Below, one piece after another: positions 19,267 through 36,541 of a DNA stretch of 58,965 nucleotides. The notes under the pieces were generated by a model, which saw only the letters and a program-made list of their open reading frames with translations, was not told the DNA's origin and did no database searches. Location of the stretch: contig NZ_JASGBQ010000018.1 of NCBI RefSeq assembly GCF_030053595.1, positions 1 through 58,965 of the forward strand. Direction: 5' to 3'. Position 1 is the first letter of the stretch. Each line of letters opens with the position of its first letter. The DNA comes from Fusibacillus kribbianus. Its GTDB lineage: Bacteria > Bacillota > Clostridia > Lachnospirales > Lachnospiraceae. The position numbers were made by a program, and so were the translations under genes.

Positions 19267-20253
19267 ATGGACATCGGGAGAGAGGTGCTTTATCTGAGTC
19301 AGGCTGACGTGAAGGCTGTGGGGCTCACGATGAAGGACTATATTGATACCATGGAGGAGGCGCACAGGGATAAGGGAAACGGAGACATCGTCATGCCTCC
19401 CAAGATTACCGTGCAGCCAAATCCGGATCTGTTTATGCTGGGCATGGGCTGTGCAGTGAACCGGACAAAGGCGGCAGGCATTAAGTGGCTGTCCGGCTGT
19501 GCCACAAACCGGGACAAAGGGCTTCCACGGTTCACTGGTTTCGTCATTATCAATGATATGGAGACAGGAGCTCCGGTCTGTATTATGGATGCCACTTATG
19601 TGACTGCTATGCGGACGGCGGCTGTCAGCGGCCTGGCTCTTCGGTATCTGGCCAATCAGGACAGTGAGACAGTGGGGGTTTACGGCTGCGGCATGGAGGG
19701 ACGGACCAATCTGGAGGCCGCTCTGTGTGAATGCCCCGGGATCCGGAAGGTGTATGCCTGGGCGCCCAGAGCAGTGACAGTCGATGCCTATGTGAAGGAG
19801 ATGAGCGAACGGTTCCCGGAGGTGTCCATAGAGGCCTGCCGGGATCCGGAGAAGGTCATGCGGGAAGCAGATATCTTTCTCGGAAGCTCGCCGGTGACAC
19901 ATGGGGATGAGTTTAAGCTGGTGAAGGCGGACTGGCTGAAGCCGGGGCTCACAGCAGTTCCCGTCAATGCAGAATCGCATTTTTACGATGAGGCAGTGGA
20001 ACAGTTTGACAAGATTTATATCGACGATACGACCATGTATGATCTTTGCAGAAGCATCGGCCATTACAGGACCCTGAGGGAGACGCCGCCGGAGCTTTCT
20101 GCACTGGTAACAGGAAGGGCTCCGGGACGGGAGCGAAAAGAGGAGCGGATCATTACCTTTACCGAGGGGATCGGACTCAACGATGTGGCCTGCGGGGAGA
20201 AGATCTTCCGTCTTGCCATGGAAAAGAAAATCGGAACAATGCTTCCTTTATAG
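19267..20253 (+). CDS. Ornithine cyclodeaminase / mu-crystallin family protein
   Basis: 328 residues. The family signature MDATYVTAMRTAAVSGLALRY is intact, and the Rossmann domain begins with VGVYGCGMEGRTNLEA (GxGxxG). Members use NAD(P) to deaminate ornithine to proline, or act as alanine, lysine or tauropine-like dehydrogenases, ketimine reductases or opine enzymes. AGGGAGGAG precedes the ATG. It sits just upstream of, and in the same direction as, the 2-oxoacid oxidoreductase operon, which has its own promoter, so a role in imino or keto acid chemistry of the same substrates is plausible. Exact reaction not assignable. Confidence 0.82.
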   Translation: MDIGREVLYLSQADVKAVGLTMKDYIDTMEEAHRDKGNGDIVMPPKITVQPNPDLFMLGMGCAVNRTKAAGIKWLSGCATNRDKGLPRFTGFVIINDMETGAPVCIMDATYVTAMRTAAVSGLALRYLANQDSETVGVYGCGMEGRTNLEAALCECPGIRKVYAWAPRAVTVDAYVKEMSERFPEVSIEACRDPEKVMREADIFLGSSPVTHGDEFKLVKADWLKPGLTAVPVNAESHFYDEAVEQFDKIYIDDTTMYDLCRSIGHYRTLRETPPELSALVTGRAPGRERKEERIITFTEGIGLNDVACGEKIFRLAMEKKIGTMLPL

Positions 20254-20346
20254 GAAGAAACTGGGATGCAGTCCATATTCTGGGCTGCATCCTGTCTGAT
20301 TTGACGAAAGACGGAAAGATCTTTAAAAGAAAATTGTGAATAATGC

Positions 20347-20375
20347 TTGACGTGGAATTGTCGACAATATATAAT
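20347..20375 (+). promoter_or_regulatory. Promoter of the 2-oxoacid oxidoreductase operon with embedded palindromic operator
   Basis: TTGACG (20347-20352), 17-base spacer, TATAAT (20370-20375). Within the spacer lies a perfect 12-bp palindrome, ATTGTCGACAAT (20357-20368). A protein bound there would block RNA polymerase. The same palindrome with an AT centre recurs before livG, so both are probably operators of the GntR/FCD regulator at 34869-35549. Confidence 0.75.
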
Positions 20376-20428
20376 GTACAAAAGAGAACAATTCGGGTGA
20401 TACCCGTTAACGAGAAAGGAGAACTTAT

Positions 20429-21583
20429 ATGCCAGTCGTAAAAGCATCAAAGGATCGTGTAAAAACCGGTGTACATTTTATGCTGGGGAATTACGCACTT
20501 GTAGAAGGCGCCATCAGTGCCGGATGTAATTTCTTTGGCGGTTATCCCATTACACCTGCCAACGAAATTTCAGAGAGGATGTCACAGAGACTCCCGGAGG
20601 TGGGCGGCAAGTTTGTACAGGGCGAGGACGAGCTCTTTTCCATTTTTGCATGTACCGGTGCATCTTTGGCAGGCGGTAAGGTTATGACGGCTACGGCAAG
20701 TGCCGGTTATAACTATATGCAGGAGGGCCTTGGCTACGCTTACACCATCGAGGCTCCGCTGGTCGTGGCAGACGTACAGAGATGCCGCGGTGAGAACTAT
20801 GCCAGCCAGGCAGACGTATATCAGATGAGATACGGCGCCAGCGGCGATTATGAAGCTATTGTTGTATGTCCTTCTTCTGTACAGGAGCTCTATGATTATA
20901 CCATCTGGGCCTTCAACCTGGCAGAAGAATACAGAAACCCCGTTATCATCATGTCCGAGACGACCATCGCCCTGATGCGTGAGCGTCTTGATATTCCTGA
21001 GGCATCTCAGATCGACCTTTACAACAGAAATTATACTACCCTGTCACCGGAGGAGTATCAGCCCTTCGCAGCGCCTGAGTTTGGCTGCCCTGATTTTGCA
21101 CCTCTGGGAGAGGGCTACAAGACGATCTACTCCCTGAATCCCCACGATGAAAAGGGAAGCATCGACTGGGATCCCGTTGTATTTGACAGACTGTATAAGA
21201 GAGTATGCGGAAAGATTCGTGAAAACGCGGACAAGATCTGCCGTACTGAGACCTTTATGATGGATGATGCAGACTATGCCATCGTTGCTTATGGCAGCGA
21301 GGTTCGTCCCTCCATCGAGGCTGCTGAAAAGGCAAGAGAGTGCGGAATCAAGGTTGGCGTTCTCAAGCTCTGCAACGTATGGCCCGTTCCGGAAAAGGCC
21401 ATTGCTGAGGTGGCAAAGAATGTTTCCAAGATCTTTGCAGTGGAAATGAACATGGGCAAGTATGTCAATGAGATCGCAAGAGTGGCAAACGGTGCATGCG
21501 AGGTCATTCCCGTAACCAAGAATCTGGGTCTTGTACATACCGGCTATGAGATTTTAGAAGAGATCAAGAAGGGGGTTAAATAA
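20429..21583 (+). CDS. 2-oxoacid:ferredoxin oxidoreductase, alpha subunit
   Basis: 384 residues. The N-terminal pyrimidine-binding domain is recognisable from GNYALVEGAISAGCNFFGGY and PITPANEISERM, as in KorA/VorB. EAPLVVADVQRCRG and the C-terminal transketolase-like domain (ADYAIVAYGSEVRPSIEAA) follow. The complex oxidises a 2-oxoacid plus CoA to acyl-CoA, CO2 and reduced ferredoxin. First gene of an operon with beta (1 base away) and gamma subunits, two CoA-ligase subunits and a small ferredoxin. The substrate class (2-oxoglutarate, branched-chain or aromatic oxoacid) cannot be read from sequence; the context favours amino-acid-derived oxoacids. Confidence 0.9.
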   Translation: MPVVKASKDRVKTGVHFMLGNYALVEGAISAGCNFFGGYPITPANEISERMSQRLPEVGGKFVQGEDELFSIFACTGASLAGGKVMTATASAGYNYMQEGLGYAYTIEAPLVVADVQRCRGENYASQADVYQMRYGASGDYEAIVVCPSSVQELYDYTIWAFNLAEEYRNPVIIMSETTIALMRERLDIPEASQIDLYNRNYTTLSPEEYQPFAAPEFGCPDFAPLGEGYKTIYSLNPHDEKGSIDWDPVVFDRLYKRVCGKIRENADKICRTETFMMDDADYAIVAYGSEVRPSIEAAEKARECGIKVGVLKLCNVWPVPEKAIAEVAKNVSKIFAVEMNMGKYVNEIARVANGACEVIPVTKNLGLVHTGYEILEEIKKGVK

Positions 21584-21584
21584 G

Positions 21585-22394
21585 ATGAGCGAGCTTAAAA
21601 TCAATCCCAGAAGAAAATATTTAAGACCGGAAAAGCTTCCGCACTTCTTCTGCTCCGGCTGCGGCTGCGGACAGGTGCTGAATTATTACATGCAGGCTCT
21701 GGAAGAGCTTGATATGGACCCTCAGAAAATGATCCATATCGCAGGCGTTGGCTGCACAGCCAGAATTCCTGTTTATATTAAGACAGATATGTTCCACGGC
21801 GTACACGGAAGAACTCTGGCATGGGCTACCGGTGTCAAGATGATGAAGCCGGATACTCCCGTTGTGATCTTTGCCGGTGACGGCGACATCGCTTCTATCG
21901 GCGGAAATCATCTGATCCATGCGGCAAGACGTAATCTGGATGTGACCGTTGTGATGGTAAACAACATGAACTTTGCCATGACCGGCGGGCAGGTGGCACC
22001 TACCACTCCGGAAAAATCCAGAACGATGACGACTCCTTACGGAAGCGCAGAACCCAGATTTGACGTTTGTGCTCTGGCACAGGCAGCAGGAGCTACCCAC
22101 GTGGAACGCTGGACAACGGCTCAGCCGGCACAGTGCAAAAAGGCCATGGAGAGAGCTCTGCAGCATAAAGGCTTCTCCCTGATCGAGATCGTGTCTCAGT
22201 GCCCGACTCATTTCGGACGTTATGCTCTTAAGACCGGCGATCCTGTGGCTGTACAGAAATGGATCAAGGAGCACACCTATACCGACGCTCAGGCCAAGAA
22301 GATGGCTCCCGAAGAGCTGGAAGGCAAGCTTCGCTGCGGCGAGTACATCTGTGTGGACAGGCCCATCTATGAGGGCACCAACGAGTTAATGTAA
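21585..22394 (+). CDS. 2-oxoacid:ferredoxin oxidoreductase, beta (TPP-binding) subunit
   Basis: 269 residues. The thiamine diphosphate motif is clear: GDGDIASIGGNHLIHAARR followed by NNMNFAMTGGQ. The N-terminal FFCSGCGCGQV matches the C-x-G-C-G segment of KorB-like subunits, and CTARIPVYIKTDMFHGVHGR is the usual cofactor-adjacent stretch. It begins one base after the alpha subunit stop. It acts with the alpha and gamma subunits and the ferredoxin at 25039 in the cytoplasm. Confidence 0.92.
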   Translation: MSELKINPRRKYLRPEKLPHFFCSGCGCGQVLNYYMQALEELDMDPQKMIHIAGVGCTARIPVYIKTDMFHGVHGRTLAWATGVKMMKPDTPVVIFAGDGDIASIGGNHLIHAARRNLDVTVVMVNNMNFAMTGGQVAPTTPEKSRTMTTPYGSAEPRFDVCALAQAAGATHVERWTTAQPAQCKKAMERALQHKGFSLIEIVSQCPTHFGRYALKTGDPVAVQKWIKEHTYTDAQAKKMAPEELEGKLRCGEYICVDRPIYEGTNELM

Positions 22395-22407
22395 GGAGGA
22401 CAAGAAA

Positions 22408-22965
22408 ATGGTTGCATATCCCCAGAGAATTACCTTATGTGGTTTTGGTGGACAGGGAATCATTCTGTCCGCAGTGATCTTAGGAACGACTGCCGTTACA
22501 AAGGGAAACAAGTACGCCGTTCAGACCCAGTCTTACGGTTCCGAAGCCCGCGGCGGCCAGTGTCAGGCAGAGCTCATCATTGATGAGAGAGCCATCAATT
22601 CCCCGGTAGCGGAGAAGAAGAACCTGCTGGTAGCCATGTTCCAGACAGCCTATGAAAAATACATCCCCACCTTAGAGGAGGATGGTGTCCTTGTCATTGA
22701 TCCCGGTCTGGTAACGAATATTACCCGTCCTATCAAGAACACCTTTGAAGTACCTGCAACCCAGATCGCAGTTGATATTGGAAACCGTATGGCAGCCAAC
22801 ATGGTTATGCTGGGCTTTTTAAGCGAGGCCCTCGGTATCATTGGTCATCAGGATCTTCTGGATGTGGTAAAGGATACTGTAAATCCCAGATTTGTAGAGC
22901 TTAACTTCAAGGCAGTAGAGGCCGGCGCCGCTTATGCCAAGGAGCATAACCTGTACTATAAATAA
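22408..22965 (+). CDS. 2-oxoacid:ferredoxin oxidoreductase, gamma subunit
   Basis: 185 residues, PorG/KorC-type. The opening CGFGGQGIILSAVILG is the family signature, followed by QSYGSEARGGQCQAELII. This subunit completes the catalytic core (CoA-binding side) of the oxidoreductase. Preceded by AAGGAGG; the next gene starts ten bases after its stop with AAGGAG, so the operon continues. Confidence 0.93.
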   Translation: MVAYPQRITLCGFGGQGIILSAVILGTTAVTKGNKYAVQTQSYGSEARGGQCQAELIIDERAINSPVAEKKNLLVAMFQTAYEKYIPTLEEDGVLVIDPGLVTNITRPIKNTFEVPATQIAVDIGNRMAANMVMLGFLSEALGIIGHQDLLDVVKDTVNPRFVELNFKAVEAGAAYAKEHNLYYK

Positions 22966-22974
22966 GGAGCAGCT

Positions 22975-24096
22975 ATGAATTTATTTGAATATGAAGGCAA
23001 GCAGATGATGCGGGAATACGGGATTCCCGTGCCGGAAAGCCATCTGATCACTTCTGAGGACGCACCTGCGCCCATGGCCTATCCCTTCGTACTGAAGGCA
23101 CAGGTCATGACAGGAGGAAGAGGAAAGGCCGGCGGCGTGAAGGTCTGCGAGAATGAGGCTGATTACAAGAAATATGCCCACGACATCCTGAATATGGAGA
23201 TCAAGGGACACAAGGTACACGGACTTCTGGCGGAACAGATGATGAAGGCAGAGAGAGAGCTGTATCTTTCCATTACGCTCCAGGGAGTGGCAAAGCCCAC
23301 CCTCATTGCCAGCCGCATGGGCGGAATGGACATTGAGGCGGTTTCCAGAGACAATCCGGAAGAAATCGTTAAAATGGAGATCGATCCCTTTACCGGGCTC
23401 AAGGGCTATCAGTTAAAATACCTGGCCAAGAAGCTTCAGGTGGAGGATAAACAGGACCTGTTTGCTCTTGTCAAGAAGGTACAGGATGCTTTCTTCAAGG
23501 CAGGGGCTCTTCTGGTGGAGATCAATCCTCTCGGCGTGGTGGACGGAAAGCTCGTTGCTATGGACTCCAAATTTGTCATTGACAATCATTCCCGTCAGAT
23601 GCAGGCGAAAATGGAGGAGCTGGAGGCTGCAAGGCAGAGTCTTCATGCCTATGAAACTCCTTTCAAGGAGGAGACCACCATCACTTACGTTCCTCTGGAC
23701 GGCGATCTGGGCCTGATCTCCGACGGCGCAGGCACCGGTATGCTGACTCTGGATCTTCTGAATGACGCGGGCGGCCATGTTGCCAGCTTCTGCGAGCTGG
23801 GCGGCATGACCACCGAGGAGGTTATGTACAGAGCCATGGATCTGACCCTTACCGGCCATCCGGAGATCAAGGGTGTCATCATCGTGCTGATCGGCGGATT
23901 CAACCGTATGGACAACATGGCTCTCGGCATTACAAAATATGTGAAGGAGCACAACGTTACCATTCCGATCTTCACAAGAATGTGCGGAACCATGGAGGAA
24001 GTGGGTCTGGAAACTATGAAGGAAGCCGGAATGCCCACGTACAACATCCTGTCCGACACAGTAAAAGAATTTGTACATCAGGTAGAGGGGGTGTAG
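22975..24096 (+). CDS. Succinyl-CoA synthetase-like beta subunit (ATP-grasp)
   Basis: 373 residues, like SucC. The N-terminus MNLFEYEGKQMMREYGIPVP and the ATP-grasp segments PFVLKAQVMTGGRGKAGGV and LLVEINPLGVVDGKLVAMDSK are characteristic, and the C-terminal ligase domain has NDAGGHVASFCELGG. With the alpha subunit that follows it should convert an acyl-CoA plus ADP (or GDP) and phosphate to the acid, CoA and ATP/GTP. Coupled to a 2-oxoacid oxidoreductase rather than to TCA genes, its substrate is more likely the acyl-CoA made by that enzyme than succinyl-CoA; this is inference. Confidence 0.88.
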   Translation: MNLFEYEGKQMMREYGIPVPESHLITSEDAPAPMAYPFVLKAQVMTGGRGKAGGVKVCENEADYKKYAHDILNMEIKGHKVHGLLAEQMMKAERELYLSITLQGVAKPTLIASRMGGMDIEAVSRDNPEEIVKMEIDPFTGLKGYQLKYLAKKLQVEDKQDLFALVKKVQDAFFKAGALLVEINPLGVVDGKLVAMDSKFVIDNHSRQMQAKMEELEAARQSLHAYETPFKEETTITYVPLDGDLGLISDGAGTGMLTLDLLNDAGGHVASFCELGGMTTEEVMYRAMDLTLTGHPEIKGVIIVLIGGFNRMDNMALGITKYVKEHNVTIPIFTRMCGTMEEVGLETMKEAGMPTYNILSDTVKEFVHQVEGV

Positions 24097-24099
24097 GGA

Positions 24100-24969
24100 A
24101 TGTCAATTTTGATCAATAAAGATTCAAAGGTGCTGGTTCAGGCCATTACGGGTAAATCCGGTTCCCTGCAGACCAAGGTGATGCTGGAGGCAGGCACCAA
24201 CATTGTGGCAGGCGTTACCCCCGGAAAGGGAGGCCAGGAGGTTTACGGAGTTCCCGTCTACGATTATGTTTCCGAGGCAAAGGCGCATCATGATTTCGAT
24301 ACGGTCATCAGCTTTGTGCCCCCCGCAGGAGCAAAGGATTCCTGCTTTGAAGCCATTGATGCCGGTATTAAGGTTCTCGTTCTGACCACGGAGGAGATCG
24401 CTCTTCACGATGTGGTAGAGATCATTGCCTATGCAAAGGCTCACAATACGATTCTGGTCGGACCCGGCTGCGCAGGCGTCATTGCACCCGGCGTATGCAA
24501 GGTAGGTGCTCACCCCATCCGCTTTTTCAAAAAGGGACGTGTCGGCGTTGTATCCAAGAGCGGCGCTCTGTCCTATGAGATCGGCAAGACCCTGACGGAT
24601 GCAGGCATCGGCCAGTCCTCGGTAGTAGCCATCGGCGGCGGTCCCATCTGGGGCTTTACCCAGAAGGACGCGGTAGCTCTCTATGAGGAGGATCCGGAGA
24701 CGGATGTGATTGTGCTTCTCGGCGAGATCGGCGGCGGGTCTGAGGAGGATGCGGCAGCCTTTATCAAGGAGCATGTGAAGAAACCGGTGGTTTCCCTGAT
24801 CGTGGGACGCAACGCCCCTCAGGGCAAGAGCCTGGGCCATGCGGGAGCCATTGTGAGCGGCAATGTGGGAACAGCAAAGACAAAGATCGCTGCCCTTGAG
24901 GACGCCGGTGTCCATGTGGTGAAAAATCCTGTGGAGATGGTGGAGACGATCCGGTCTCTGCTTAAATAA
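24100..24969 (+). CDS. Succinyl-CoA synthetase-like alpha subunit
   Basis: 289 residues, like SucD. ITGKSGSLQTKVMLEAGTN and VAGVTPGKGG form the CoA-binding Rossmann domain. GKSLGHAGAIVSGNVGTA carries the histidine that is phosphorylated in the family. Where SucD usually has GPNCPG this protein has GPGCAG, a change near the CoA site that may reflect another acyl group. It begins three bases after the beta subunit. Together they provide substrate-level ATP formation for the operon. Confidence 0.88.
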   Translation: MSILINKDSKVLVQAITGKSGSLQTKVMLEAGTNIVAGVTPGKGGQEVYGVPVYDYVSEAKAHHDFDTVISFVPPAGAKDSCFEAIDAGIKVLVLTTEEIALHDVVEIIAYAKAHNTILVGPGCAGVIAPGVCKVGAHPIRFFKKGRVGVVSKSGALSYEIGKTLTDAGIGQSSVVAIGGGPIWGFTQKDAVALYEEDPETDVIVLLGEIGGGSEEDAAAFIKEHVKKPVVSLIVGRNAPQGKSLGHAGAIVSGNVGTAKTKIAALEDAGVHVVKNPVEMVETIRSLLK

Positions 24970-24979
24970 GTCAAATACT

Positions 24980-25014
24980 GCGGGCGTTATAGGGCCCTTT
25001 GGCCCACCGCCCGC
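24980..25014 (+). other. Stable hairpin between ligase alpha and ferredoxin genes
   Basis: Outer arms GCGGGCG (24980-24986) and CGCCCGC (25008-25014) and inner arms GGGCC/GGCCC around CTTT. No T-run follows, so it is not a classic terminator; it may stabilise the upstream mRNA or tune the ratio of ferredoxin to enzyme. Confidence 0.6.
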
Positions 25015-25038
25015 GTAAAAGAAAGAGAGGAAACTGCC

Positions 25039-25236
25039 ATGGCGGTATATATTGATAAAGAGCTTTGCAAGAGCTGCAAGATCTGCATGAGCATCTGCCC
25101 GAAAAATGTGTTTGAGATCACTCATCACGTAAACAAAAAGGGCTACAACTATGTGGAGGCTGCCAGAGAAGAGGACTGCGTAAAATGCGGTCAGTGCGAG
25201 ACCTCCTGTCCTGATTTTGTAATTCATGTTGAATAA
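25039..25236 (+). CDS. Two-cluster 4Fe-4S ferredoxin (delta subunit of the oxidoreductase)
   Basis: 65 residues with two classic motifs, CKSCKICMSICP (Cys 10, 13, 16, 20) and CVKCGQCETSCP (Cys 47, 50, 53, 57), each binding a 4Fe-4S cluster. In three-plus-one subunit oxidoreductases such a protein is the delta subunit that accepts electrons from the TPP site. It follows the ligase genes instead of sitting among the oxidoreductase genes, but shares their direction. AGAGAGG precedes the ATG. Confidence 0.92.
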   Translation: MAVYIDKELCKSCKICMSICPKNVFEITHHVNKKGYNYVEAAREEDCVKCGQCETSCPDFVIHVE

Positions 25237-25292
25237 ACCCGGAGATAGGTTTATACTCTAAAACAAAAAGCAACCGGGAAAGGAAAAGCATC

Positions 25293-26003
25293 ATGAAAAA
25301 GACAATTGGTATCGTAGGCGGTATGGGACCGCTGGCAACATGTGATTTGTTTAAAAAGATTGTGGAGATCACCGACGCAGCCTGTGACCAGGATCACGTG
25401 CGGGTGTGCATCGACAGCAACACAGAGATTTCTGACAGAACGGCGGCCATCTTAAGCGGCGGGAAAAATCCCGTCCCTGAGATGGTAAAAAGTGCCGTAA
25501 GGCTTCAGGGAATGGGCGCGGATGTGCTCATTATGCCCTGCAATACGGCCCATTATTTCTATAACCAGATCGTGCCCTTTGTGGATACCCCCTTCCTCAA
25601 CATGCTTGAGGAGACTGCAAAGGAGATCAAACGGAGAGGAATCAAAAAGGTCGGACTTTTAGCCACTGACGGAACCTGCCAGTCGGGCGTTTACAAGACT
25701 GTTTTCGATGCCGCGGGAATCGAGATGCTTTCTCCTTCTCCGGTCGGACAGCAGGCTGTGATGGATGTGATTTACAAAGGCGTAAAAGCCGGAAATCTGT
25801 CCATCGATCTGTCCGGCTTCAACAAAGCGATGGATGAACTTTTTGAGGCCGGAGCCGAAGTCCTTGTGCTGGGCTGCACAGAGCTTCCCGTAGCCTTTGA
25901 GCTGTTCCATATTGACAGGCCCAACATTGACCCCACCCTTGTACTGGCAGCGGCGGCAGTGCGTTTTGTCGGTGCAAAGGTCAAGGAAGAGGTCGGATAT
26001 TAA
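25293..26003 (+). CDS. Aspartate/glutamate racemase family protein
   Basis: 236 residues, cofactor-independent racemase fold. It begins KKTIGIVGGMGPLAT, the family's N-terminal signature. The two catalytic cysteines are Cys83 in MPCNTAH and Cys195 in GCTELP, so a two-base mechanism is intact. Members racemise Asp, Glu or, in broad-specificity forms, other amino acids. Placed between the oxoacid oxidoreductase operon and an aminotransferase, it may convert D-amino acids released by the deacylase downstream into L-forms for transamination (inference). The exact substrate is not readable. Confidence 0.88.
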   Translation: MKKTIGIVGGMGPLATCDLFKKIVEITDAACDQDHVRVCIDSNTEISDRTAAILSGGKNPVPEMVKSAVRLQGMGADVLIMPCNTAHYFYNQIVPFVDTPFLNMLEETAKEIKRRGIKKVGLLATDGTCQSGVYKTVFDAAGIEMLSPSPVGQQAVMDVIYKGVKAGNLSIDLSGFNKAMDELFEAGAEVLVLGCTELPVAFELFHIDRPNIDPTLVLAAAAVRFVGAKVKEEVGY

Positions 26004-26022
26004 AGAGAACAGGAGGATTGTC

Positions 26023-27207: not shown

Positions 27208-27238
27208 GTATACTATTGGCAAAAATGGAGATTAGAAG

Positions 27239-28855: not shown

Positions 28856-28867
28856 TAAAATTAGTTG

Positions 28868-28896: not shown

Positions 28897-28913
28897 AACA
28901 ACAGATTAGCAAA

Positions 28914-28946
28914 GGCGCTATTCCTGAAGGGGAGTGGCGTCTTTTA
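28914..28946 (+). terminator. Terminator or attenuator upstream of the liv operon
   Basis: Eleven-base stem (28914-28924 with 28931-28941, several G-U pairs), loop TGAAGG, then TTTT. It may simply end the deacylase transcript, but it lies only about 11 bases after the start expected from the promoter at 28868, so it could also attenuate that promoter. Confidence 0.65.
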
Positions 28947-29011
28947 CTATTTTACATATATTTGTTTTATACAGTATATTCGTTTTAAAGCATTTGGTGA
29001 AATTACACAAA

Positions 29012-29027
29012 ACAGTTGACAAACTGT
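29012..29027 (+). promoter_or_regulatory. Dyad ACAGTT-GACA-AACTGT over a -35 box
   Basis: A 6-bp dyad with a 4-base centre, containing TTGACA (29016-29021). AT-rich -10 candidates follow near 29037. It may be a second promoter with its own operator for the liv operon. Confidence 0.45.
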
Positions 29028-29127
29028 AGGGTTATATATTAAAATTGATGCATCATAGATAGAAACAAGCTGTTAAAACGGATACTGGTAGTCAAAAATG
29101 ATGAAAGTATCTTTTTTATAAACAACT

Positions 29128-29141
29128 AATTGTATACAATT
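29128..29141. promoter_or_regulatory. Probable GntR-family operator before livG
   Basis: Perfect 14-bp palindrome AATTGTATACAATT, 50 bases before the livG start. Its core TTGTNNACAA is identical to the operator at 20357-20368. A TATACT box follows at 29147-29152. Confidence 0.7.
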
Positions 29142-29190
29142 TACAATATACTAAAGCGGTAGAAAGTCCAATAAACAGGGAGGTATCGGA

Positions 29191-29952
29191 ATGTTATCTG
29201 TGAATCAAGTATCTATGCACTTTGGCGGCCTGGTGGCTCTGGATGGAGTCAATATGACTGTGAAGGACGGAGAAATCAGAGGCCTGATCGGACCAAATGG
29301 TTCCGGGAAGACCACATTGATCAATGTAATTACCGGATTCTATGCTCCGACGAAAGGTACCGTGGAGATGGACGGGCAGGTTATTTCCGGAAAAACACCA
29401 AACGCAGTGGCGAAAGCAGGTCTTTGCCGGACATTTCAAAACATCAATCTGTTTTCGGAAATGAGTGCTCTTGAAAATGTAGTTACTGCGTCTTGTACCC
29501 ATCAGACGGTGAATTTGGGATCGGCAATATTCCAGACTAAGGCTTTGAAGGTGCAGGAAAAGGAATGCTACGATAAAGCAAGAGAGCTTTTGGAATTCGT
29601 TGGACTTGCCGGAAAAGAGAATATAAAAGCAACTAACCTTCCATATGGACAGCAGAGACTTTTGGAGATTGCCAGAGCATTGGCTACAGAACCTAAGCTG
29701 CTGCTTTTGGATGAACCGGTAGCAGGTATGAATGAGCAGGAAAGCGATGAAGCTGCACAGTTGGTACATAAGCTTAGAGAAAGCGGAAAGACGATTCTCC
29801 TTATCGAGCATCACATGAAATTTGTTATGTCCCTCTGTGATAACCTGACTGTACTTAACTACGGAAAAGTTATTGCCGAGGGAACACCTTCAGAGATCCA
29901 ATCCAATGAAGATGTTATCAGCATTTATCTTGGTAAAAAAAGGGGGAAATAA
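29191..29952 (+). CDS. livG: Branched-chain-amino-acid-type ABC transporter ATP-binding protein (LivG)
   Basis: 253 residues. Walker A is GPNGSGKTTLINVITG; the Q-loop region is FQNINLF; the signature is the LPYGQQRLLEIARAL variant usual in LivG; Walker B is LLLLDEPVAGMNEQE; the switch is in LLIEHHMKFVM. One of two ATPases energising the importer with LivF, LivH, LivM and the binding protein. GGGAGG precedes the ATG. The real ligand may be an acylated or carbamoylated amino acid or small peptide, given the neighbouring hydrolases (inference). Confidence 0.93.
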   Translation: MLSVNQVSMHFGGLVALDGVNMTVKDGEIRGLIGPNGSGKTTLINVITGFYAPTKGTVEMDGQVISGKTPNAVAKAGLCRTFQNINLFSEMSALENVVTASCTHQTVNLGSAIFQTKALKVQEKECYDKARELLEFVGLAGKENIKATNLPYGQQRLLEIARALATEPKLLLLDEPVAGMNEQESDEAAQLVHKLRESGKTILLIEHHMKFVMSLCDNLTVLNYGKVIAEGTPSEIQSNEDVISIYLGKKRGK

Positions 29953-29955
29953 TTC

Positions 29956-30663
29956 ATGTTAAAGATCGAAAATCTCAGTTGTCATTATGGCGTGATTCAG
30001 GCCCTTCATGAAGTAAATATCAACATTGAGAAAAAGGGTATTTATGCGATCATCGGTGCCAACGGCGCAGGAAAATCCTCCCTGATTAACGTTCTCTCGG
30101 GACTTGTACCGGCATCTTCGGGACGAGTGGTATTTGAAGGCGTGGAAATTACGGATCTGCAGCCCCATGAGATCATAAAAACAGGAATTTCGGTTTGTCC
30201 TGAGGGAAGAAAAATTTTCAAAAGCGTATCGGTCTATGAGAATCTTCTTGCCGGAGCCTATATCATGAAGGATAAGGCGGAGATCCAGAAAAATGTTGAA
30301 ATGGTCTATGACTTTTTCCCCAGATTGTCTGAACGGCGTAAACAGCTTGCCGGAACATTATCCGGCGGTGAACAGCAGATGCTGGCCATTGGAAGAGCAT
30401 TGATGTCAAATCCCAAGCTTCTTCTTCTGGATGAGCCGTCCATGGGTCTTGCACCGAATCTGATCGATTTTGTGTTTGAAACGGTAGTAAAGATTTATGA
30501 AGAAAAGAGTCTGCCGTCTATTATCGTGGAGCAGAATTCAGAAATGGCTCTCAGCATAGCTGACTATGCATATGTTCTCGAGGTTGGTCATCTGACTATG
30601 GAGGGAACAGGTGCAGAACTTCTTGCCAGCGATGAAGTACAGAAGAAATATCTCGGCGCATAA
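29956..30663 (+). CDS. livF: Branched-chain-amino-acid-type ABC transporter ATP-binding protein (LivF)
   Basis: 235 residues. Walker A IGANGAGKSSLINVLSG, signature TLSGGEQQMLAIGRALM, Walker B LLLLDEPSMGLAPNL, and the LivF-typical ISVCPEGRKIF segment. It starts three bases after livG and pairs with it as the ATPase dimer of the importer. Confidence 0.93.
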   Translation: MLKIENLSCHYGVIQALHEVNINIEKKGIYAIIGANGAGKSSLINVLSGLVPASSGRVVFEGVEITDLQPHEIIKTGISVCPEGRKIFKSVSVYENLLAGAYIMKDKAEIQKNVEMVYDFFPRLSERRKQLAGTLSGGEQQMLAIGRALMSNPKLLLLDEPSMGLAPNLIDFVFETVVKIYEEKSLPSIIVEQNSEMALSIADYAYVLEVGHLTMEGTGAELLASDEVQKKYLGA

Positions 30664-30721
30664 AAGAGAAACTATTGGCTCAGATTGAGCCTGTAGCATA
30701 AAAACAAAAGGAGGAACACGT

Positions 30722-31867
30722 ATGAAGACATTGAAAAAAGCAGGTTGTCTGGCATTGGCACTGGCTATGTGCGTATCCATGATCGGATGCGGCTCAAAGA
30801 AGGATGAGACAATCAGAATTGGTGCAGTTGGCCCTCTGACCGGCGACAGCTCCAACGGCGGTACCGACGAGCTGGAAGGAAAGCAGTTAGCTGTGGAGGA
30901 TTTCAATGCAGCTGGCGGTATTGATGGAAAGAAGGTAGAGCTTTTCTACGAAGATGACGCTTCTTCTGCATCTCAGTCTGCATCTGCTGTTACTAAACTG
31001 ATCAATCAGGATAAAGTAGTAGCTATCGTAGGTGCTCATAACAGTGCTTGTACACTGGCTGACCTGGAAGTAATCAACAAATATAAGATTCCTATGATCA
31101 CTCCCGGATCTTCTGCAGAGGCCGTATTAACCTCAGGCTGTGAGTGGATCTCCAGATCCTTCCCTGGTGACGGACTGCAGTGTTCTGCATTGATCAACTA
31201 CATTACTACTACCGGATCTCCCAAGAAGATCGGCGTTATCTATTCCAACGACGATTTCGGACAGGGTGGTTTGAACTCTATCACCGAGGCTGCAACTGCA
31301 AAAGGACTTGAGGTCGTTTCTGAATCTTTCGCAAATGAAGATAAGGATATGACTACCCAGCTCAGCAAATTAAAGAGTGAAAATATTGATTGTCTGTTTA
31401 TCTGGTGCCAGTACACTCCCGGTGCTCTGATCATGAAGCAGGCAAGAGGTCTTGGATGGGATATTCAGTTCTACAGCGGCACAGGAACTATTCATTCAGA
31501 TACCTTCTCTCTGTCTGACGGTGCATATGTAGGCTGCATCAACTCCGTACCTTTCACTTCCACCAGTACAGATCCGAAGGTACAGGATTTTGTAAAGCGT
31601 TATAAAGAAAAATTTGGTGAAATTCCTTCTCAGAACTCCGCAAGAGCTTATGATGCAACGATGATTCTTCTGAACGCAATCAAGACGGCCGGTTCTACCG
31701 ACGCTGCCAAGATTCAGGAAGCAATCCGCAATACCAAGGATCATGACGGTATGCAGGGCAACATTTCTATTGATCCGGCAACCGGTGAATACATCGGTGA
31801 TGTTATGATCGTTCAGGCTACAGACAACAACGATTGGGAATATCTTGATTCCGCATCGACTAACTAA
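30722..31867 (+). CDS. Liv-type substrate-binding lipoprotein
   Basis: 381 residues. A lipoprotein signal (MKTLKKAGCLALALAMCVSM, then IGC) ends at Cys23, followed by the periplasmic-binding-protein type 1 fold starting IRIGAVGPLTGDSSNGG and ending with typical FVKRYKEKFGEIPSQNSARAYDA. It would be anchored outside the membrane and hand ligand to LivHM. It is preceded by AAAGGAGG. A more regular codon use than in its neighbours suggests high expression, normal for binding proteins. Ligand unknown. Confidence 0.92.
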   Translation: MKTLKKAGCLALALAMCVSMIGCGSKKDETIRIGAVGPLTGDSSNGGTDELEGKQLAVEDFNAAGGIDGKKVELFYEDDASSASQSASAVTKLINQDKVVAIVGAHNSACTLADLEVINKYKIPMITPGSSAEAVLTSGCEWISRSFPGDGLQCSALINYITTTGSPKKIGVIYSNDDFGQGGLNSITEAATAKGLEVVSESFANEDKDMTTQLSKLKSENIDCLFIWCQYTPGALIMKQARGLGWDIQFYSGTGTIHSDTFSLSDGAYVGCINSVPFTSTSTDPKVQDFVKRYKEKFGEIPSQNSARAYDATMILLNAIKTAGSTDAAKIQEAIRNTKDHDGMQGNISIDPATGEYIGDVMIVQATDNNDWEYLDSASTN

Positions 31868-31949
31868 AGCATTGTATCCGGCAGGGGATCTCCCCTGCCG
31901 GACATAAAGATGGAAGGGTCAATATTGTATGTTGGAGGGAGAAAAAACG

Positions 31950-32789
31950 ATGAAAGAAAAAGTAGTGGTAGCAGCGGTTCAGATGGATATCGTTCTTTTT
32001 GACATGGCAGCGAACCTGAATTATATGGAAAATGCCGTAAAGAAGGCAAAGGAAGAAAAAAATGCAGATTTAGTGGTGTTTCCGGAACTTTGCAGCATTG
32101 GATATATCCGTGAGAGAAATAAGGAATTCGGACACAATTATGTAATGTGTGCCGACAAGGTTCCCGGAGAATTCACGGAAGCACTCGGTGAGATTGCAAA
32201 GAAATATGATGTGTATATTATTTCCGGAATGACAGAGGCTCATCCGCAGATTCCTGCAACTCTCTATAATTCAGCAGTGCTGATTGCCCCCACAGGAAAG
32301 ATCGTGGGCGTGCACAGAAAAGTACATATCCCCGGCTACGAGAAGCATTACTTCATCCCGGCCAATACAAATGATGTATTCCAGACTGATATCGGAACAA
32401 TCGGTATGGGAATCTGCTACGACAATCAGTTTGCAGAGCTTACAAGGAATTACGCACTGAAGGGTGCAGAGATTCTGGTTATGCTCTGGAATATGCCCAG
32501 GTTCTCAAATCAGCCTGAAATGCTTCATCGACTGACTTCCACAAGAGCCTTTGAAAACAGATTCTATGCAGTGTCCTGCAACAGAATCGGAGAAAACAGC
32601 GGAATGGAATTCTTTGGTCACAGTGCCATCGCAGATCCGTTAGGTGAACTGATCGCGACGGCAGGAGAAGAGGAAACGATTATCTACGCAACGTTAGAAC
32701 GGTCCATGCTCCTCACGGAGAGGGCACAGATGCCCGTGTTCAGAGACAGAAGGCCGGATCTTTACGGCGAGTTGGTAAAACCTCTGTAG
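31950..32789 (+). CDS. Carbon-nitrogen hydrolase (nitrilase superfamily amidase)
   Basis: 279 residues with the full catalytic triad of the fold: Glu46 (VFPELCS), Lys124 (HRKVHIPG) and Cys156 (GMGICYDNQFAE). Relatives include N-carbamoyl-D-amino acid hydrolase, beta-ureidopropionase and omega-amidase. Sitting inside the liv operon with a D-aminoacylase gene upstream, a carbamoyl or amide side reaction on an imported amino acid derivative is likely. The ATG at 31950 was chosen because GGAGGGAG lies 8 bases before it; an ATG at 31929 has a weaker site. No signal peptide. Confidence 0.88.
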   Translation: MKEKVVVAAVQMDIVLFDMAANLNYMENAVKKAKEEKNADLVVFPELCSIGYIRERNKEFGHNYVMCADKVPGEFTEALGEIAKKYDVYIISGMTEAHPQIPATLYNSAVLIAPTGKIVGVHRKVHIPGYEKHYFIPANTNDVFQTDIGTIGMGICYDNQFAELTRNYALKGAEILVMLWNMPRFSNQPEMLHRLTSTRAFENRFYAVSCNRIGENSGMEFFGHSAIADPLGELIATAGEEETIIYATLERSMLLTERAQMPVFRDRRPDLYGELVKPL

Positions 32790-32841
32790 ATTCAGAACGC
32801 AGCTTGAATCTGCAGTTTCAGAAAATGAACGAGGTGAGAGA

Positions 32842-33714
32842 ATGGGACTTTTAGGTTTACAGATTGTCAATGGTATAACCATCGGCATGATTTATGGATT
32901 AGCTGCCCTTGGATTTACGATGGTATTCAAGGCACTGGGGTATTTGAATTTTTCACATTCCAATACCATAACAATCGGCGCATTTGTAATTTATACCGTG
33001 GTGATCAGCTGTAATATCCCCTTTATACTTGCGATGCCGATCGTTACTCTGTTTATGCTCTTTTACGGTTTTGTACTGGAAAAGGTTCTTTTCAAACGGT
33101 TTAGAAATGCATCGGCACTGACTTTTATGCTGGTTTCGATTTCTCTGTCGACCGTCGTAAGTAATACCTGTTTGCTGATATTCGGGCCGCAGCCGAGAGC
33201 TTTGACCAATGTATTTCCTTCAACCAGAATTGCCATTGGGCCGGTGTCGATTCCCTTTAATAATATATGCATCTTCGTCATCGCAGTGGCGTTCCTGGTG
33301 ATCCTTCAGCTTTTCTTCTCAAAAACAAAGTTTGGACTTTCTTTGAGACTTGCATCTGAGGATCCCTCTACAGCCAGCCTGATGGGAATCAAGGTATTCA
33401 ATACGAGAGCAGCTACATTTGCTATCACAGCGGCTTTGGGTGGTATTGCAGGTATGCTGGTATCTCCTCTTTATTCTGTTACCATCGAGCTTGGATCCTC
33501 TCTGGCGCTGAAAACATTTATTTCGGCAGTAGTAGGAGGTCTTGGAAACTTTATCGGTGCAGTAGTCGGCGGACTCTTGGTTGGTTTGACAGAGACTATG
33601 GCTGCCACCTATATCTCTTCTGCATACAAGGATTTGATCGTGTACGTAGCAGGCATTGTGATTCTGGCGTTTTTCCCTTATGGAATTTTCCGCCGTGTCA
33701 AGACAAAGCATTAA
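32842..33714 (+). CDS. livH: Liv-type ABC transporter permease (LivH)
   Basis: 290 residues, hydrophobic throughout with about eight membrane segments. The opening LQIVNGITIGMIYGLAALGFT and the AALGGIAGMLVSPLYSVT cytoplasmic loop are typical of LivH. GLGNFIGAVVGGLLVGLTE matches the conserved C-terminal coupling region. Forms the channel with LivM. Confidence 0.92.
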   Translation: MGLLGLQIVNGITIGMIYGLAALGFTMVFKALGYLNFSHSNTITIGAFVIYTVVISCNIPFILAMPIVTLFMLFYGFVLEKVLFKRFRNASALTFMLVSISLSTVVSNTCLLIFGPQPRALTNVFPSTRIAIGPVSIPFNNICIFVIAVAFLVILQLFFSKTKFGLSLRLASEDPSTASLMGIKVFNTRAATFAITAALGGIAGMLVSPLYSVTIELGSSLALKTFISAVVGGLGNFIGAVVGGLLVGLTETMAATYISSAYKDLIVYVAGIVILAFFPYGIFRRVKTKH

Positions 33715-33732
33715 TCAGGGAAGGAGAACGAC

Positions 33733-34764
33733 ATGAATATGATAAAAAAGTATGGAAAATATATCGTAATGGTCATTCTGCTGGCCCTGGTGATTTATCT
33801 TTCCTTTAACAGCTATTTTGTATTTGTAGGCATCAATGCTCTGATCAATGCCATTGCGGTAATGGGAATCGTAATTATTTCCGGATATGCAAAACAGCTC
33901 CACTTAGGGCAGTCGGCATTCATGGGAATCGGTGCTTATACTTCAGCGATTCTGATGACAAAGGCGGGACTGAATTTCTGGCTGACGATTCCTGTAGCTA
34001 TGGTGATCTCAGGTCTGTTTGGCTGGGTTCTTTCTATTCCAACCCTGAAGCTTAAAGGCGGTTCCTACCTGGCTCTTGTGACTCAGACCTTTGGTGAGAT
34101 TATTTATGTGCTTCTTTTAAATATGGTATGGCTGACAAACGGACCTTTCGGTATCTCCGGTATTAAGGCTCCGACAATAGGTCCCATTGATTTCACAGGG
34201 CTTCAGCCGTATTTCTTCCTTTGTATGGCAATTCTGATCATTGTATACATTGCATTAAAACGAATTGTTAAGGTGAAGTTCGGTCGTTTCTTCATTTCCA
34301 TCAGAGAATCTGAGGAAGCAGCTCAGTCCATCGGAATCAATACAAGAAAGTATAAGATGGTGGCGTTTGTCATTGCAACCTCCATTGCTGGTCTGGCCGG
34401 CGTTCTCTATGGACCCTTTATCGGATATTTAAGCCCGGAACAGTTCCGCTGGCAGCCGTCTCTGATCCTTGTATCTATGGCTATCGTTGGCGGTCTTTAC
34501 AGTCTGGAGGGAGGAATCATTGGTGCGATCCTTCTGACTTTCCTTCCGGAACTCCTTCGTTCCACAGATCAGCTTCGTATGATCTTATACGGAGTGATCG
34601 TAATATTGACACTGGCGTTCCTTCCTGATGGTATTGTTTCTCTTTTTGGAAAGAAACCGAAGGAAATCAAGAAGATGCTGAGTGCTCAATGGGATATGCT
34701 TTCTGATAAGACTTTACGCAGAAAAAAGAAAAAAATTAAGGCAGCGAGAATGTCGGGCAAATAA
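33733..34764 (+). CDS. livM: Liv-type ABC transporter permease (LivM)
   Basis: 343 residues, multi-spanning. The ISGYAKQLHLGQSAFMGIGA segment and the ALVTQTFGEIIYVLL region are the LivM hallmarks, and the coupling loop is SIGINTRKYKMVAFVIATSI. The tail is strongly basic (KTLRRKKKKIKAAR) and cytoplasmic. Eighteen bases after livH; last transporter gene. Confidence 0.92.
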   Translation: MNMIKKYGKYIVMVILLALVIYLSFNSYFVFVGINALINAIAVMGIVIISGYAKQLHLGQSAFMGIGAYTSAILMTKAGLNFWLTIPVAMVISGLFGWVLSIPTLKLKGGSYLALVTQTFGEIIYVLLLNMVWLTNGPFGISGIKAPTIGPIDFTGLQPYFFLCMAILIIVYIALKRIVKVKFGRFFISIRESEEAAQSIGINTRKYKMVAFVIATSIAGLAGVLYGPFIGYLSPEQFRWQPSLILVSMAIVGGLYSLEGGIIGAILLTFLPELLRSTDQLRMILYGVIVILTLAFLPDGIVSLFGKKPKEIKKMLSAQWDMLSDKTLRRKKKKIKAARMSGK

Positions 34765-34800
34765 TAAAGAAGAAAGATTTTTTTGAACTATTGCTAAAAT

Positions 34801-34829
34801 TTGACAACCCTGCCAATTTGTGATAAAAA
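34801..34829 (+). promoter_or_regulatory. Promoter of the GntR/FCD regulator gene
   Basis: TTGACA (34801-34806), 17-base spacer, TAAAAA (34824-34829). The regulator may be made both from this promoter and by read-through from livM. I saw no TTGTNNACAA palindrome here. Confidence 0.55.
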
Positions 34830-34868
34830 CAAAAGTAGAATTTAAATTTTGGTCGGGGGTGACATCAT

Positions 34869-35549
34869 ATGGCAACGTCAAACTTTGGGGCGAATCCATC
34901 ACTGAAACAGCTGGTGTACGATAATTTAAAAGAGCGGATTATTCACGGGGAATTAAAGCCGGGTGTCCGTCTTCGTGAAGAAGACCTTTCTACGGAGATG
35001 AATATCAGCAGAGCCCCGATCCGTGAGGCCCTGAATATGCTGGAGCGTGATGGGTTTACGACGATCGTTCCAAGGAAAGGTGCTCTTGTTGCAGAGGTTA
35101 AAAAGGAAGATATCCGTTATATCTGGGAAATGAGGGCGCTTTTGGAGCCATATGCGGCAAAACTGTCCACCTTGAGTATACCTGATAAAAAGATTCAGGA
35201 GGCCAAAAAGAATGTATCCTGGGTCCTTGATAATCCGGAGGATATGGAACAGTATATAAGCTCTGACCTTGAAGTCCATGAGATGCTGGTGGATTATCTT
35301 GATAACCGGTTTTTAAAGTCAACGCTGCAGAACATGAAAGCTCATTCGCTGCGGCTTCGGTGGGCTGCAGAATATGACAATGCAGAAGCAAAGAAGGAAA
35401 TCATCGTTGTCGCAACGAAAGAGCATTTAGAAATTGTACAGGCATTGGAACAAAAAGATGAAGATCTGGTATATGAGACGGTGAAACATCATGTGGAAAA
35501 CAGTGCTAACCGCCTTACCAATGCAAATTACAGAAACTATAATAATTAG
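34869..35549 (+). CDS. GntR-family transcriptional regulator, FCD (FadR-type) subfamily
   Basis: 226 residues. The N-terminal winged helix reads LVYDNLKERIIHGELKPG, then LREEDLSTEMNISRAPIREA (recognition helix) and LERDGFTTIVPRKGALV. The C-terminal all-helical FCD domain carries the metal/ligand residues in SDLEVHEMLV, KEHLEIVQAL and VKHHVENSA. FCD domains usually bind small carboxylates or amino acid derivatives. It lies between the importer and the M29-like gene and is the only regulator in the island, so it is the best candidate for the TTGTNNACAA palindromes at 20357, 28865 and 29128. Confidence 0.9.
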   Translation: MATSNFGANPSLKQLVYDNLKERIIHGELKPGVRLREEDLSTEMNISRAPIREALNMLERDGFTTIVPRKGALVAEVKKEDIRYIWEMRALLEPYAAKLSTLSIPDKKIQEAKKNVSWVLDNPEDMEQYISSDLEVHEMLVDYLDNRFLKSTLQNMKAHSLRLRWAAEYDNAEAKKEIIVVATKEHLEIVQALEQKDEDLVYETVKHHVENSANRLTNANYRNYNN

Positions 35550-35581
35550 AGGCTGAAAGAAGGCCTCGAAAAGGAGGCTTT

Positions 35582-36541
35582 ATGAGCGAAAAAGCAATGA
35601 AGGGCTGCGAAATTCTCCTCCACACCTGCGGTGAGGTAAAAAAGGGAGAACGTGTCCTTGTAATTACGGATAATACGAGCAAAGAAATCGGAGAAGCGAT
35701 GTATAAATGTGCAGCAGCATTTACCGATACCACTTTAGTCTGCATGCCTGATCGTTCTACCCACGGCGAAGCACCTACCGATGCGATCGCGGCAGCAATG
35801 AAGGAGTCGGATGTGATGTTTTCTGCAACCACATTCTCTCTGTATAACAGCAGTGCAAGAATTGAGGCGTGTGAAGCCGGCTCCCGTTTTGTGAATATGG
35901 CTGACTATTCCATGGAAATGCTGGAGGAGGGCTGTCTGTTTACAGATTGGGGTGAGATCCGTAAAATTGTAGATGATTTAAAAACAAGAATTGTGGGCAA
36001 GGAGCTTTCTATTACAACGCCTGCAGGAACGAATTTCCATACATCCATTGAAGGGCGTCATGCCGATACAGGTTACGGTGTCTCCAGAGAAAAAGGAGAG
36101 GCTTCCTCACCGCCCGATGCCGAGTGTGCCGTCGGTCCTGCTGACAATTCCGCAGAGGGTGTATTGGTTATTGACGGAAGTATTCCGCTTCCCGGTATCG
36201 GACTCATTGAAACACCGATCACTCTTAAGGTGGAAAAAGGTTATATTACTTCCATTGAAGGCGGAAAAGAGGCTGATGTGCTCAGAGAAACCCTGGCAGG
36301 TTTTAATGATCCCCGCGTATACAATGCGGCAGAGGTTGGATTTGGTTTGAACCCTGCCGGAAAATTAAGCGGTCGTATGCTGGAGGATGAGGGAGTTATG
36401 GGTACCATGCATATCGGTATTGGTAACAATCTTGCTTATGGTGGCACCTGCAATACCCCGGTTCATATTGACCTGATCATGAAATGTCCGACCTGTATCA
36501 TTGACGGTGTATGCGTGATGAAGGACGGAAAGCTTCAGTAA
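35582..36541 (+). CDS. M29-aminopeptidase-like metalloprotein
   Basis: 319 residues, related to the C-terminal half of thermophilic aminopeptidases (peptidase family M29) and to 2,5-dihydroxypyridine 5,6-dioxygenase-type proteins. Metal ligands can be placed at Glu251 (AEVGFGLNP), Glu270 (LEDEGVMGTMHIGIG), His277 (same segment), and His295 and Asp297 (HIDLIM). The PPDAECAVGPADNSAEG stretch is also typical. It could release N-terminal amino acids from small peptides or open a ring; sequence alone does not decide. AAAGGAGG precedes the ATG. It follows the GntR gene by 32 bases and ends the island before a terminator. Confidence 0.8.
   Translation: MSEKAMKGCEILLHTCGEVKKGERVLVITDNTSKEIGEAMYKCAAAFTDTTLVCMPDRSTHGEAPTDAIAAAMKESDVMFSATTFSLYNSSARIEACEAGSRFVNMADYSMEMLEEGCLFTDWGEIRKIVDDLKTRIVGKELSITTPAGTNFHTSIEGRHADTGYGVSREKGEASSPPDAECAVGPADNSAEGVLVIDGSIPLPGIGLIETPITLKVEKGYITSIEGGKEADVLRETLAGFNDPRVYNAAEVGFGLNPAGKLSGRMLEDEGVMGTMHIGIGNNLAYGGTCNTPVHIDLIMKCPTCIIDGVCVMKDGKLQ

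Follow-up and report, generated by a model that had tools for sequence, protein, structure and literature searches.

The stretch of DNA analysed here (the window, 58,965 nucleotides of contig NZ_JASGBQ010000018.1 of the gut bacterium Fusibacillus kribbianus, from a genome of 2.9 Mb) carries, at positions 19267-36541, genes for a 2-oxoacid:ferredoxin oxidoreductase (OFOR), a ligase resembling succinyl-CoA synthetase (SCS), a racemase, an aminotransferase, hydrolases and a Liv-type importer, and the question raised by this locus is whether these genes encode one pathway and, if so, for what substrate. Judged from sequence comparison, they are on balance likely to form a single regulon importing and oxidising an N-substituted acidic amino acid with a gain of ATP, the acyl group formed probably not being succinyl. 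In this route, the Liv importer would take up an acidic amino acid that is N-substituted or bound in a peptide, and the amidohydrolase, the nitrilase-fold enzyme and the M29-like enzyme would release it in free form. The Asp-type racemase and the aminotransferase would then bring either enantiomer to the 2-oxoacid, from which the oxidoreductase (KorABG) would form acyl-CoA together with CO2 and reduced ferredoxin; the SCS-like ligase would convert acyl-CoA to the free acid and ATP. The acyl group is the weakest point of this scheme, and is perhaps a shorter acidic one, malonyl from aspartate or sulfoacetyl from cysteate.

Gene content of the island

An earlier note on this DNA had listed the genes of a proposed uptake and oxidation island running in one direction, and all of them were recovered, with the same content and order, on the + strand:

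19267-20253, +: OCD/mu-crystallin-family gene
20429-21583, +: oxidoreductase alpha (korA), variant clade; R118-x-R120-G-[ED]-N123 loop, N237
21585-22394, +: oxidoreductase beta (KorB), variant clade; R60, and N129-F/Y-A-M replacing x-Y-G-M
22408-22965, +: oxidoreductase gamma
22975-24096, +: ADP-forming acyl-CoA synthetase (SCS-like) beta; GFN replacing GIV/GIT/GIM
24100-24969, +: SCS-like alpha; GHAGAI and SGALSYE motifs retained, as seen in the sequence
25039-25236, +: ferredoxin/delta subunit, 8 Cys
25293-26003, +: Asp/Glu-type racemase (Asp-type), 48% identity to PhAspR over 223 positions
26023-27207, +: class I aminotransferase, nearest solved relatives aspartate aminotransferases
27239-28855, +: D-aminoacylase-type amidohydrolase
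29191-29952, +: LivG-type ATPase
29956-30663, +: LivF-type ATPase
30722-31867, +: Liv-type substrate-binding protein (LivK)
31929-32789, +: carbon-nitrogen hydrolase, nitrilase fold
32842-33714, +: LivH-type permease
33733-34764, +: LivM-type permease
34869-35549, +: GntR/FCD regulator
35582-36541, +: M29-like metalloenzyme, weak assignment

No description of this gene combination was found in the open-access literature, subscription papers lying mostly outside the coverage.

Oxidoreductase and ligase as a distinct clade

The oxidoreductase has the subunit set of a 2-oxoglutarate:ferredoxin oxidoreductase (KOR), with alpha, beta and gamma subunits and a ferredoxin-like subunit, and lacks the standard KOR motifs (RxGPSTG in alpha, YG(L/M)T in beta). 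For comparison, 25 named loci were obtained by a scan with the ligase beta subunit (the scan pattern included FNRMD, which makes a GGFN count in these loci circular), and the ligase was located in 16 of 185 genomes of the phylum Synergistota, at 17 places, by protein similarity rather than by motif (L095 query, E <= 1e-75); L184 is the L095 locus again, leaving 16 new places. KorA carries RxRG[ED]N in 22 of the 25 named loci, 14 of the 17 Synergistota loci and none of 27 standard KOR loci, and KorB carries N[FY]AMTGGQ in 23/25, 17/17 and 0/27, respectively, the standard loci having RxGPSTG in all 27 and YGMTGGQ in 24. Among the named loci the misses comprise L098, which has neither motif, and the cut contigs L092 and L097; the KorA misses among Synergistota (L172, L173, L180) are stretches that end within or near the gene. 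A KorB tree covered the window, 23 of the named loci, 9 of the Synergistota loci (those in which a separate KorB of more than 200 residues was mapped; L184 omitted) and 25 of the 27 standard loci. It set the 33 clade members apart from the 25 standard ones with support of 100/99, and carries a warning about long branches (L012, L016).

The changes fall at or next to residues of the substrate pocket. In StOFOR, beta K49 and L123 and alpha T349 and D468 surround the 2-oxoacid side chain (PMC5020499). In the clade, by an alignment read partly by eye, K49 corresponds to R, L123 to M, T349 to a shortened loop with N at its end, and D468 to N, with YG changed to FA beside the L123 position. The SCS-like pair has ATP-grasp/CoA-ligase (beta) and CoA-binding/ligase (alpha) Pfam domains and the phospho-His loop; the alpha subunit scores above NCBIfam cut-offs and the beta subunit below those for SCS-beta (289 against 370 and 282 against 375.55 bits). 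The GIV-type motif for the succinate C4 carboxylate is replaced by GFN in the window, DGAG stands where SCS has NGAG or NGSG, and further changes fall in the same region. Altered positions of the ligase, too, coincide with or border on the C4-carboxylate site of SCS (PMC11489063). GGFN was found at 17/17 Synergistota places and at 0/9 other clostridial SCS-beta loci, these nine being the other full-length matches with loci in 291 genomes of the class (GIT in 6, GIM in 2, a diverged form in 1; a split copy, G564:C38, and many short weak matches excluded). Larger side chains at two sites, Ala for Gly in KorB and Phe for Ile in the ligase, would favour a four-carbon acidic substrate.

By these motifs, the oxidoreductase and ligase are not an ordinary KOR and SCS and belong to a distinct subfamily in which the motifs are nearly invariant. 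Because the substrate sites of both enzymes are rewritten in this nearly invariant way, the two probably share an unusual acyl group other than succinyl. The pair resembles KOR plus SCS (H. pylori OOR, 8ys5; MmOGOR, 6n2n; StOFOR; E. coli SCS) in subunit make-up and overall chemistry, a ferredoxin-linked oxidation followed by ATP-forming release of CoA, and differs in having RxRG[ED]N for RxGPSTG in KorA, FAM for YG(L/M) in KorB and GFN for GIV in the ligase, in forming a separate clade, and in being accompanied by genes for a racemase, an aminotransferase, a hydrolase and an importer. Amino-acid catabolism by an OFOR and an ADP-forming ligase is already known, and the window appears to hold a variant of it with an apparently uncharacterised, widespread clade; the statement in the earlier note that each family is well known overlooks this distinct subfamily. 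Tentatively, and with less than even confidence, the clade may be a new enzyme pair, a ferredoxin-dependent oxidoreductase making a non-succinyl acidic acyl-CoA (sulfoacetyl-CoA from cysteate or malonyl-CoA from oxaloacetate) with an ATP-forming ligase, present in anaerobes of several phyla as an exchangeable cassette whose import and deacylation modules vary.

These enzymes also bear on a more conventional reading, ordinary catabolism of D- or L-glutamate from peptides or peptidoglycan via 2-oxoglutarate and succinyl-CoA to succinate and ATP, with neutral pocket changes. KorB R60 has an Arg as its counterpart in both H. pylori OOR and MmOGOR, and the alpha-subunit Tyr that contacts the succinate C4 carboxylate in SCS (Tyr167; PMC11489063) is retained in 26/26 rows with letters, matched by eye. 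However, across several phyla the altered motifs hardly vary and do not drift, and standard kor-suc operons with GIT-type ligases occur separately (L130), with both ligase types present in L096. Glutamate catabolism is on this evidence rather unlikely, though it is the rival to which we give the most weight.

The ligase likewise introduces a fermentation of sulfonates, in which cysteate would pass through sulfopyruvate and sulfoacetyl-CoA to sulfoacetate, with ATP and reduced ferredoxin. GFN is similar to GIN, which is the signature of the 3-sulfopropionate-CoA ligase HpfYZ, and HpfY has an Asn in the acid site, as has the window ligase (PMC11489063). The HpfXYZ (3-sulfopropionate) and SqwD-SqwKL (sulfoacetate) branches also gain ATP from a non-succinyl acyl-CoA through an SCS-family or ADP-forming ligase, their acyl-CoA coming from an aldehyde dehydrogenase and not, as in the window, from a 2-oxoacid oxidoreductase (PMC11489063, PMC12890257). 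Compared with HpfYZ (beta GIN, alpha His160; PMC11489063), the window ligase has the Asn, with Phe for Ile, and retains the Tyr that HpfYZ replaces by His. The Asn of GFN was not accepted as proof of a sulfonate substrate. Elsewhere the core accompanies a 2-hydroxyacid-dehydrogenase-family gene (below cut-offs) and TRAP transporters, and in L083 a TSUP-type exporter gene (read by eye), and the route would, as an argument only, avoid release of sulfite; hydantoinase and glutamyl-type partners fit it poorly. Taken with the racemase scores below, sulfonate fermentation seems distinctly unlikely.

Racemase, aminotransferase, hydrolases and importer

The racemase retains the R48, C82, K164 and C194 positions of PhAspR (1jfl) in 17/17 aligned rows, PhAspR itself being one row, and thus has the Cys pair and the R48 and K164 positions of an aspartate racemase; R48 and K164 are presumably the acid-binding residues. 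It differs from PhAspR in lying within a catabolic operon. Its score of 237 passes the cut-off of 190 of the model for the cysteate racemase CuyB (NF052483), as do PhAspR (250.8) and Salmonella 3s7z (228); the model is not diagnostic, the PhAspR control passing it, and the CuyB label was rejected as evidence for cysteate, which also removes a point from the sulfonate route. The two nearest solved relatives of the aminotransferase are aspartate aminotransferases, and the Lys that we take to bind the side-chain carboxylate is present in 15/17 rows with letters, Thr replacing it in L092 and L099.

An Asp-type racemase and aminotransferase would suit a route from aspartate or 3-hydroxyaspartate through oxaloacetate and malonyl-CoA to malonate and ATP, as would the pyridoxal phosphate (PLP) enzyme of the serine-racemase/hydroxyaspartate-lyase family in Synergistota and an auxin-efflux-carrier-family gene in the L098 cluster (below cut-off). 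Against it, the route would yield no more energy than conversion of oxaloacetate via pyruvate to acetate (argument only), we know of no natural enzyme converting oxaloacetate to malonyl-CoA, and a limited search of the open-access literature for such an enzyme gave nothing relevant; we rate malonate formation no higher than the sulfonate route.

A broad or neutral 2-oxoacid enzyme (acting, for example, on 2-oxobutyrate on the way to propionate), to which the Asp-like front end would be incidental, is less probable again. It would agree with the preference of StOFOR K49R for pyruvate (PMC5020499), with threonine ammonia-lyase as the best NCBIfam model of the Synergistota PLP enzyme (below cut-off, 340 against 379), and with the absence of the Lys from the L092 and L099 aminotransferases, and it conflicts with the polar pocket positions (R, N, N), with the acid-binding positions present in every aligned racemase row, and with the prevalence of the aminotransferase Lys.

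For the remaining enzymes of the proposed acidic amino acid pathway, assignments are coarser. The amidohydrolase has as best solved matches D-aminoacylase and N-acyl-D-glutamate deacylase (1m7j, 3gip), with a Pfam Amidohydro_3 score of 76 over 29.7 and a best NCBIfam score of 164 under 340; like these enzymes it is of the amidohydrolase family, though under the NCBIfam cut-off, and the presence of N-acyl-D-glutamate deacylase among the solved members lends some support to glutamate. The importer has the five-subunit ABC make-up of Liv-type branched-chain amino acid importers, from which it differs by the nitrilase-fold gene between livK and livH and by subunits that all score below the Liv model cut-offs; the nearest solved relatives of its substrate-binding protein are generic amino-acid binders. 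The M29-like gene of the earlier note is present, its label being weak: the Pfam score is 21.9 bits, below the gathering score of 27, and the predicted fold is poor (pLDDT 56).

Operator-like palindromes and a presumed common regulator

The palindrome TTGTNNACAA occurs in 6 copies in the 58,965 bases, against 0.93 expected from mononucleotide shuffling, with the following sites at the island:

20358-20367, no strand: operator-like palindrome TTGTCGACAA, within the korA promoter, between -35 and -10
28865-28874, no strand: operator-like palindrome TTGTTGACAA, overlapping the promoter-like site 28868-28896
29130-29139, no strand: operator-like palindrome TTGTATACAA, upstream of livG

The korA promoter-like site consists of TTGACG at 20347, a spacer of N17, and TATAAT to 20375. 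When the gap before korA was dinucleotide-shuffled 2000 times, a palindrome arose in 0.65% of the shuffles; two palindromes before livG, as lie in the amidohydrolase-livG gap, arose in 0/2000. The palindrome holds the same position in the korA promoter in 7/7 genus genomes with korA (read by eye), precedes livG in 6/6 genus genomes with that importer, and in G301 also stands ahead of the Nramp gene that replaces the importer. All seven genus genomes that have the oxidoreductase (Kor+) also carry an FCD regulator gene, which in G307 lies on the contig of the importer. The locus thus has a GntR/FCD regulator gene within the unit and an operator-like site common to its promoters, and the GntR/FCD protein is presumed to bind the palindromes. 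Since the palindrome is common to both halves and the FCD gene is found in all seven genomes, the importer and the oxidative half are best read, as the earlier note had proposed, as a single induced unit, and genes 20429-36541 would constitute one GntR/FCD-controlled catabolic regulon.

Conservation of the two halves in the genus

The oxidoreductase is present, at 88% identity or more, in 7/11 genus genomes including that of the window, by a search whose E-value limit of 1e-100 is strict and misses relatives under about 50% identity. A close LivK (at least 83%) was found in 6/7 Kor+ and 0/4 Kor- genomes, two of the latter being only 86-87% complete. The halves are contiguous and in the same order in 5/7 (window, G300, G302, G304, G305), an order that is therefore non-random; a comparison of relatives that could have separated the halves was in the main passed. 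In G307 the halves lie on separate contigs, and in G301 the core is followed by gntR, Nramp-family, M20-family peptidase (by similarity), DegT-family and M29-like genes and a different Liv importer. The amidohydrolase (at least 83%) is found in 5/11 genus genomes, the window and four relatives, and G300 has an M20 peptidase in its place; the hydrolase slot between aminotransferase and importer varies.

That the two halves are chance neighbours, as the G307 contigs and the G+C contents of the window halves (0.516 and 0.447) might suggest, is very improbable given that the importer tracks Kor in the genus, the contiguity, the common palindrome and the G1033 arrangement described below. Of the five relatives that have both halves, four (G302, G304, G305, G307) show a slight G+C contrast at most, though in G300 it is clear (0.616 against 0.507), and the idea of a G+C island was rejected.

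Distribution of the core and its partners

The core is sparse (2/391 genomes of the class, the window's own included); Yanshouia hominis BX1 (L088) is one of its carriers. In gene maps, kor-suc-ferredoxin occurs with exchangeable partners in Lachnospiraceae, Oscillospiraceae, Eubacteriaceae, Fermentithermobacillaceae and Synergistales, and also on single contigs labelled Atribacterota, Caldisericaceae and Deltaproteobacteria, which as single contigs of metagenome-assembled genomes could be mis-binned. In G1033 (Synergistota) the order is kor-suc-fdx-aat-M29-like-PTE-PTE-nit-livHMGFK, with a complete importer and with 43-57% identity for the aminotransferase and the genes common to the second half of the window; of the independent evidence, this arrangement speaks most strongly for the island being a functional unit. 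In L091 an aminotransferase and an M29-like gene (64%) accompany the core. Allantoinase/hydantoinase-type, hydantoin-racemase-family and phosphotriesterase-family genes lie beside the core in Synergistota relatives, a set of neighbours that fits an N-substituted amino acid. The gene after the core in the 17 Synergistota loci is of the serine-racemase/threonine-lyase family in 9, an aminotransferase in 3, of the 2-hydroxyacid-dehydrogenase family in 2, and none of these in 3.

Several observations weigh against import and oxidation of an N-substituted acidic amino acid with a non-succinyl product. GltS in L087 (above its cut-off, 365.5 over 310.75), together with neighbours that score below their cut-offs, namely gamma-glutamyltransferase (GGT; L093) and C26-like and L-Ala-D/L-Glu-epimerase-like genes (L085), fits D/L-glutamate, as may an alanine racemase above cut-off in L084 (a fragment below cut-off in L098), and the C4-carboxylate Tyr of the ligase is universal in the rows compared. 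In 9/17 Synergistota loci a gene of the serine-racemase/threonine-lyase family stands in place of the racemase and aminotransferase, and two aminotransferases have Thr for the Lys. The GGFN count in the named loci is circular, and the Synergistota search favours near relatives of its query. In the genus, the halves are split between contigs in G307, the importer is replaced in G301, and half of the Kor- genomes are incomplete. Finally, we know of no characterised member of the oxidoreductase and ligase clade.

If the favoured pathway is correct, gut and digester anaerobes would have a way of conserving energy from a modified amino acid, possibly one of D configuration. Annotation is likely to label the pair '2-oxoglutarate oxidoreductase' and 'succinate-CoA ligase' despite the rewritten substrate sites. 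The window genome has no other SCS-beta match, and its POR_N matches are korA, a second within an open frame of 1186 residues and a third under the cut-off, with no other KOR-type alpha subunit; models of its metabolism could therefore predict the wrong product.

Other kor-suc architectures were seen alongside these loci. In L096 (1-9122) two kor-suc modules follow each other in tandem, the ligase being of the GIT type in one and of the GFN type in the other; 2-hydroxyacid-dehydrogenase-family and GntR genes lie between them, and the contig end cuts the first module. L130 (G643:C33) represents another architecture, in which standard kor genes and GIT-type sucCD are found with malic enzyme-, symporter- and M20-type-hydrolase-like neighbours (by eye) and an allantoinase-type amidohydrolase above cut-off. 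In L131, L133, L135 and L136, GIT-type sucCD lies beside SauS-like acylating aldehyde dehydrogenases, accompanied in L133, L135 and L136 by E1-subunit-like genes; these dehydrogenases miss the SauS cut-off (394-456 against 600), settle nothing, and were set aside as a substrate guide.

Unit boundaries and neighbouring features

Intergenic gaps are 1-69 bp within korA-amidohydrolase and 3-104 bp within livG-M29, with wider gaps at OCD-korA (175 bp), amidohydrolase-livG (335 bp) and between the M29-like gene and the next gene (331 bp). Spacing together with promoter- and terminator-like sites suggests three units, namely OCD alone, korA-amidohydrolase and livG-M29-like, the last ending in the following site:

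36726-36768, +: terminator-like hairpin of 20 pairs, behind the M29-like gene, end of unit

Both scans of the window are rich in chance sites (terminators, 23 found against 17.0 expected; promoters, 46 against 27.3). With a 14-pair terminator-like hairpin at 20262-20294, between OCD and korA, the OCD gene looks like a separate unit outside the korA-M29 unit. It adjoins korA in 0/6 genus relatives with the cluster, within the stretches fetched (upstream reach only about 4.5 kb in G307 and 5.5 kb in G301, where contigs end), and the single copy located in relatives (80%) is in G302, some 11 kb upstream of korA. The inclusion of OCD in the island by the earlier note is accordingly not supported, and of the pathway proposed there the gene set still fits hydrolysis, racemisation, transamination, oxidation and formation of acid and ATP. 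The OCD gene sits behind an Amt-PII fusion gene and has its own promoter-like site at 19193.

A 15-pair hairpin with a U-rich tail at 28911-28944, directly behind the promoter-like site 28868-28896 and ahead of livG, may serve the importer unit as an attenuator or leader. A YitT-family membrane gene (37413-38303), located downstream of the M29-like gene, has this position also in the genus relatives L040, L041, L043, L047 and L137 and is more distant in L074. A sigma-70-type factor adjoins a 389-residue protein without a Pfam match at 43944-45670, the product of 41333-42037 likewise has no Pfam match, and T-box leaders with Rfam matches precede cysS (1221-1467) and leuS (12678-12924).

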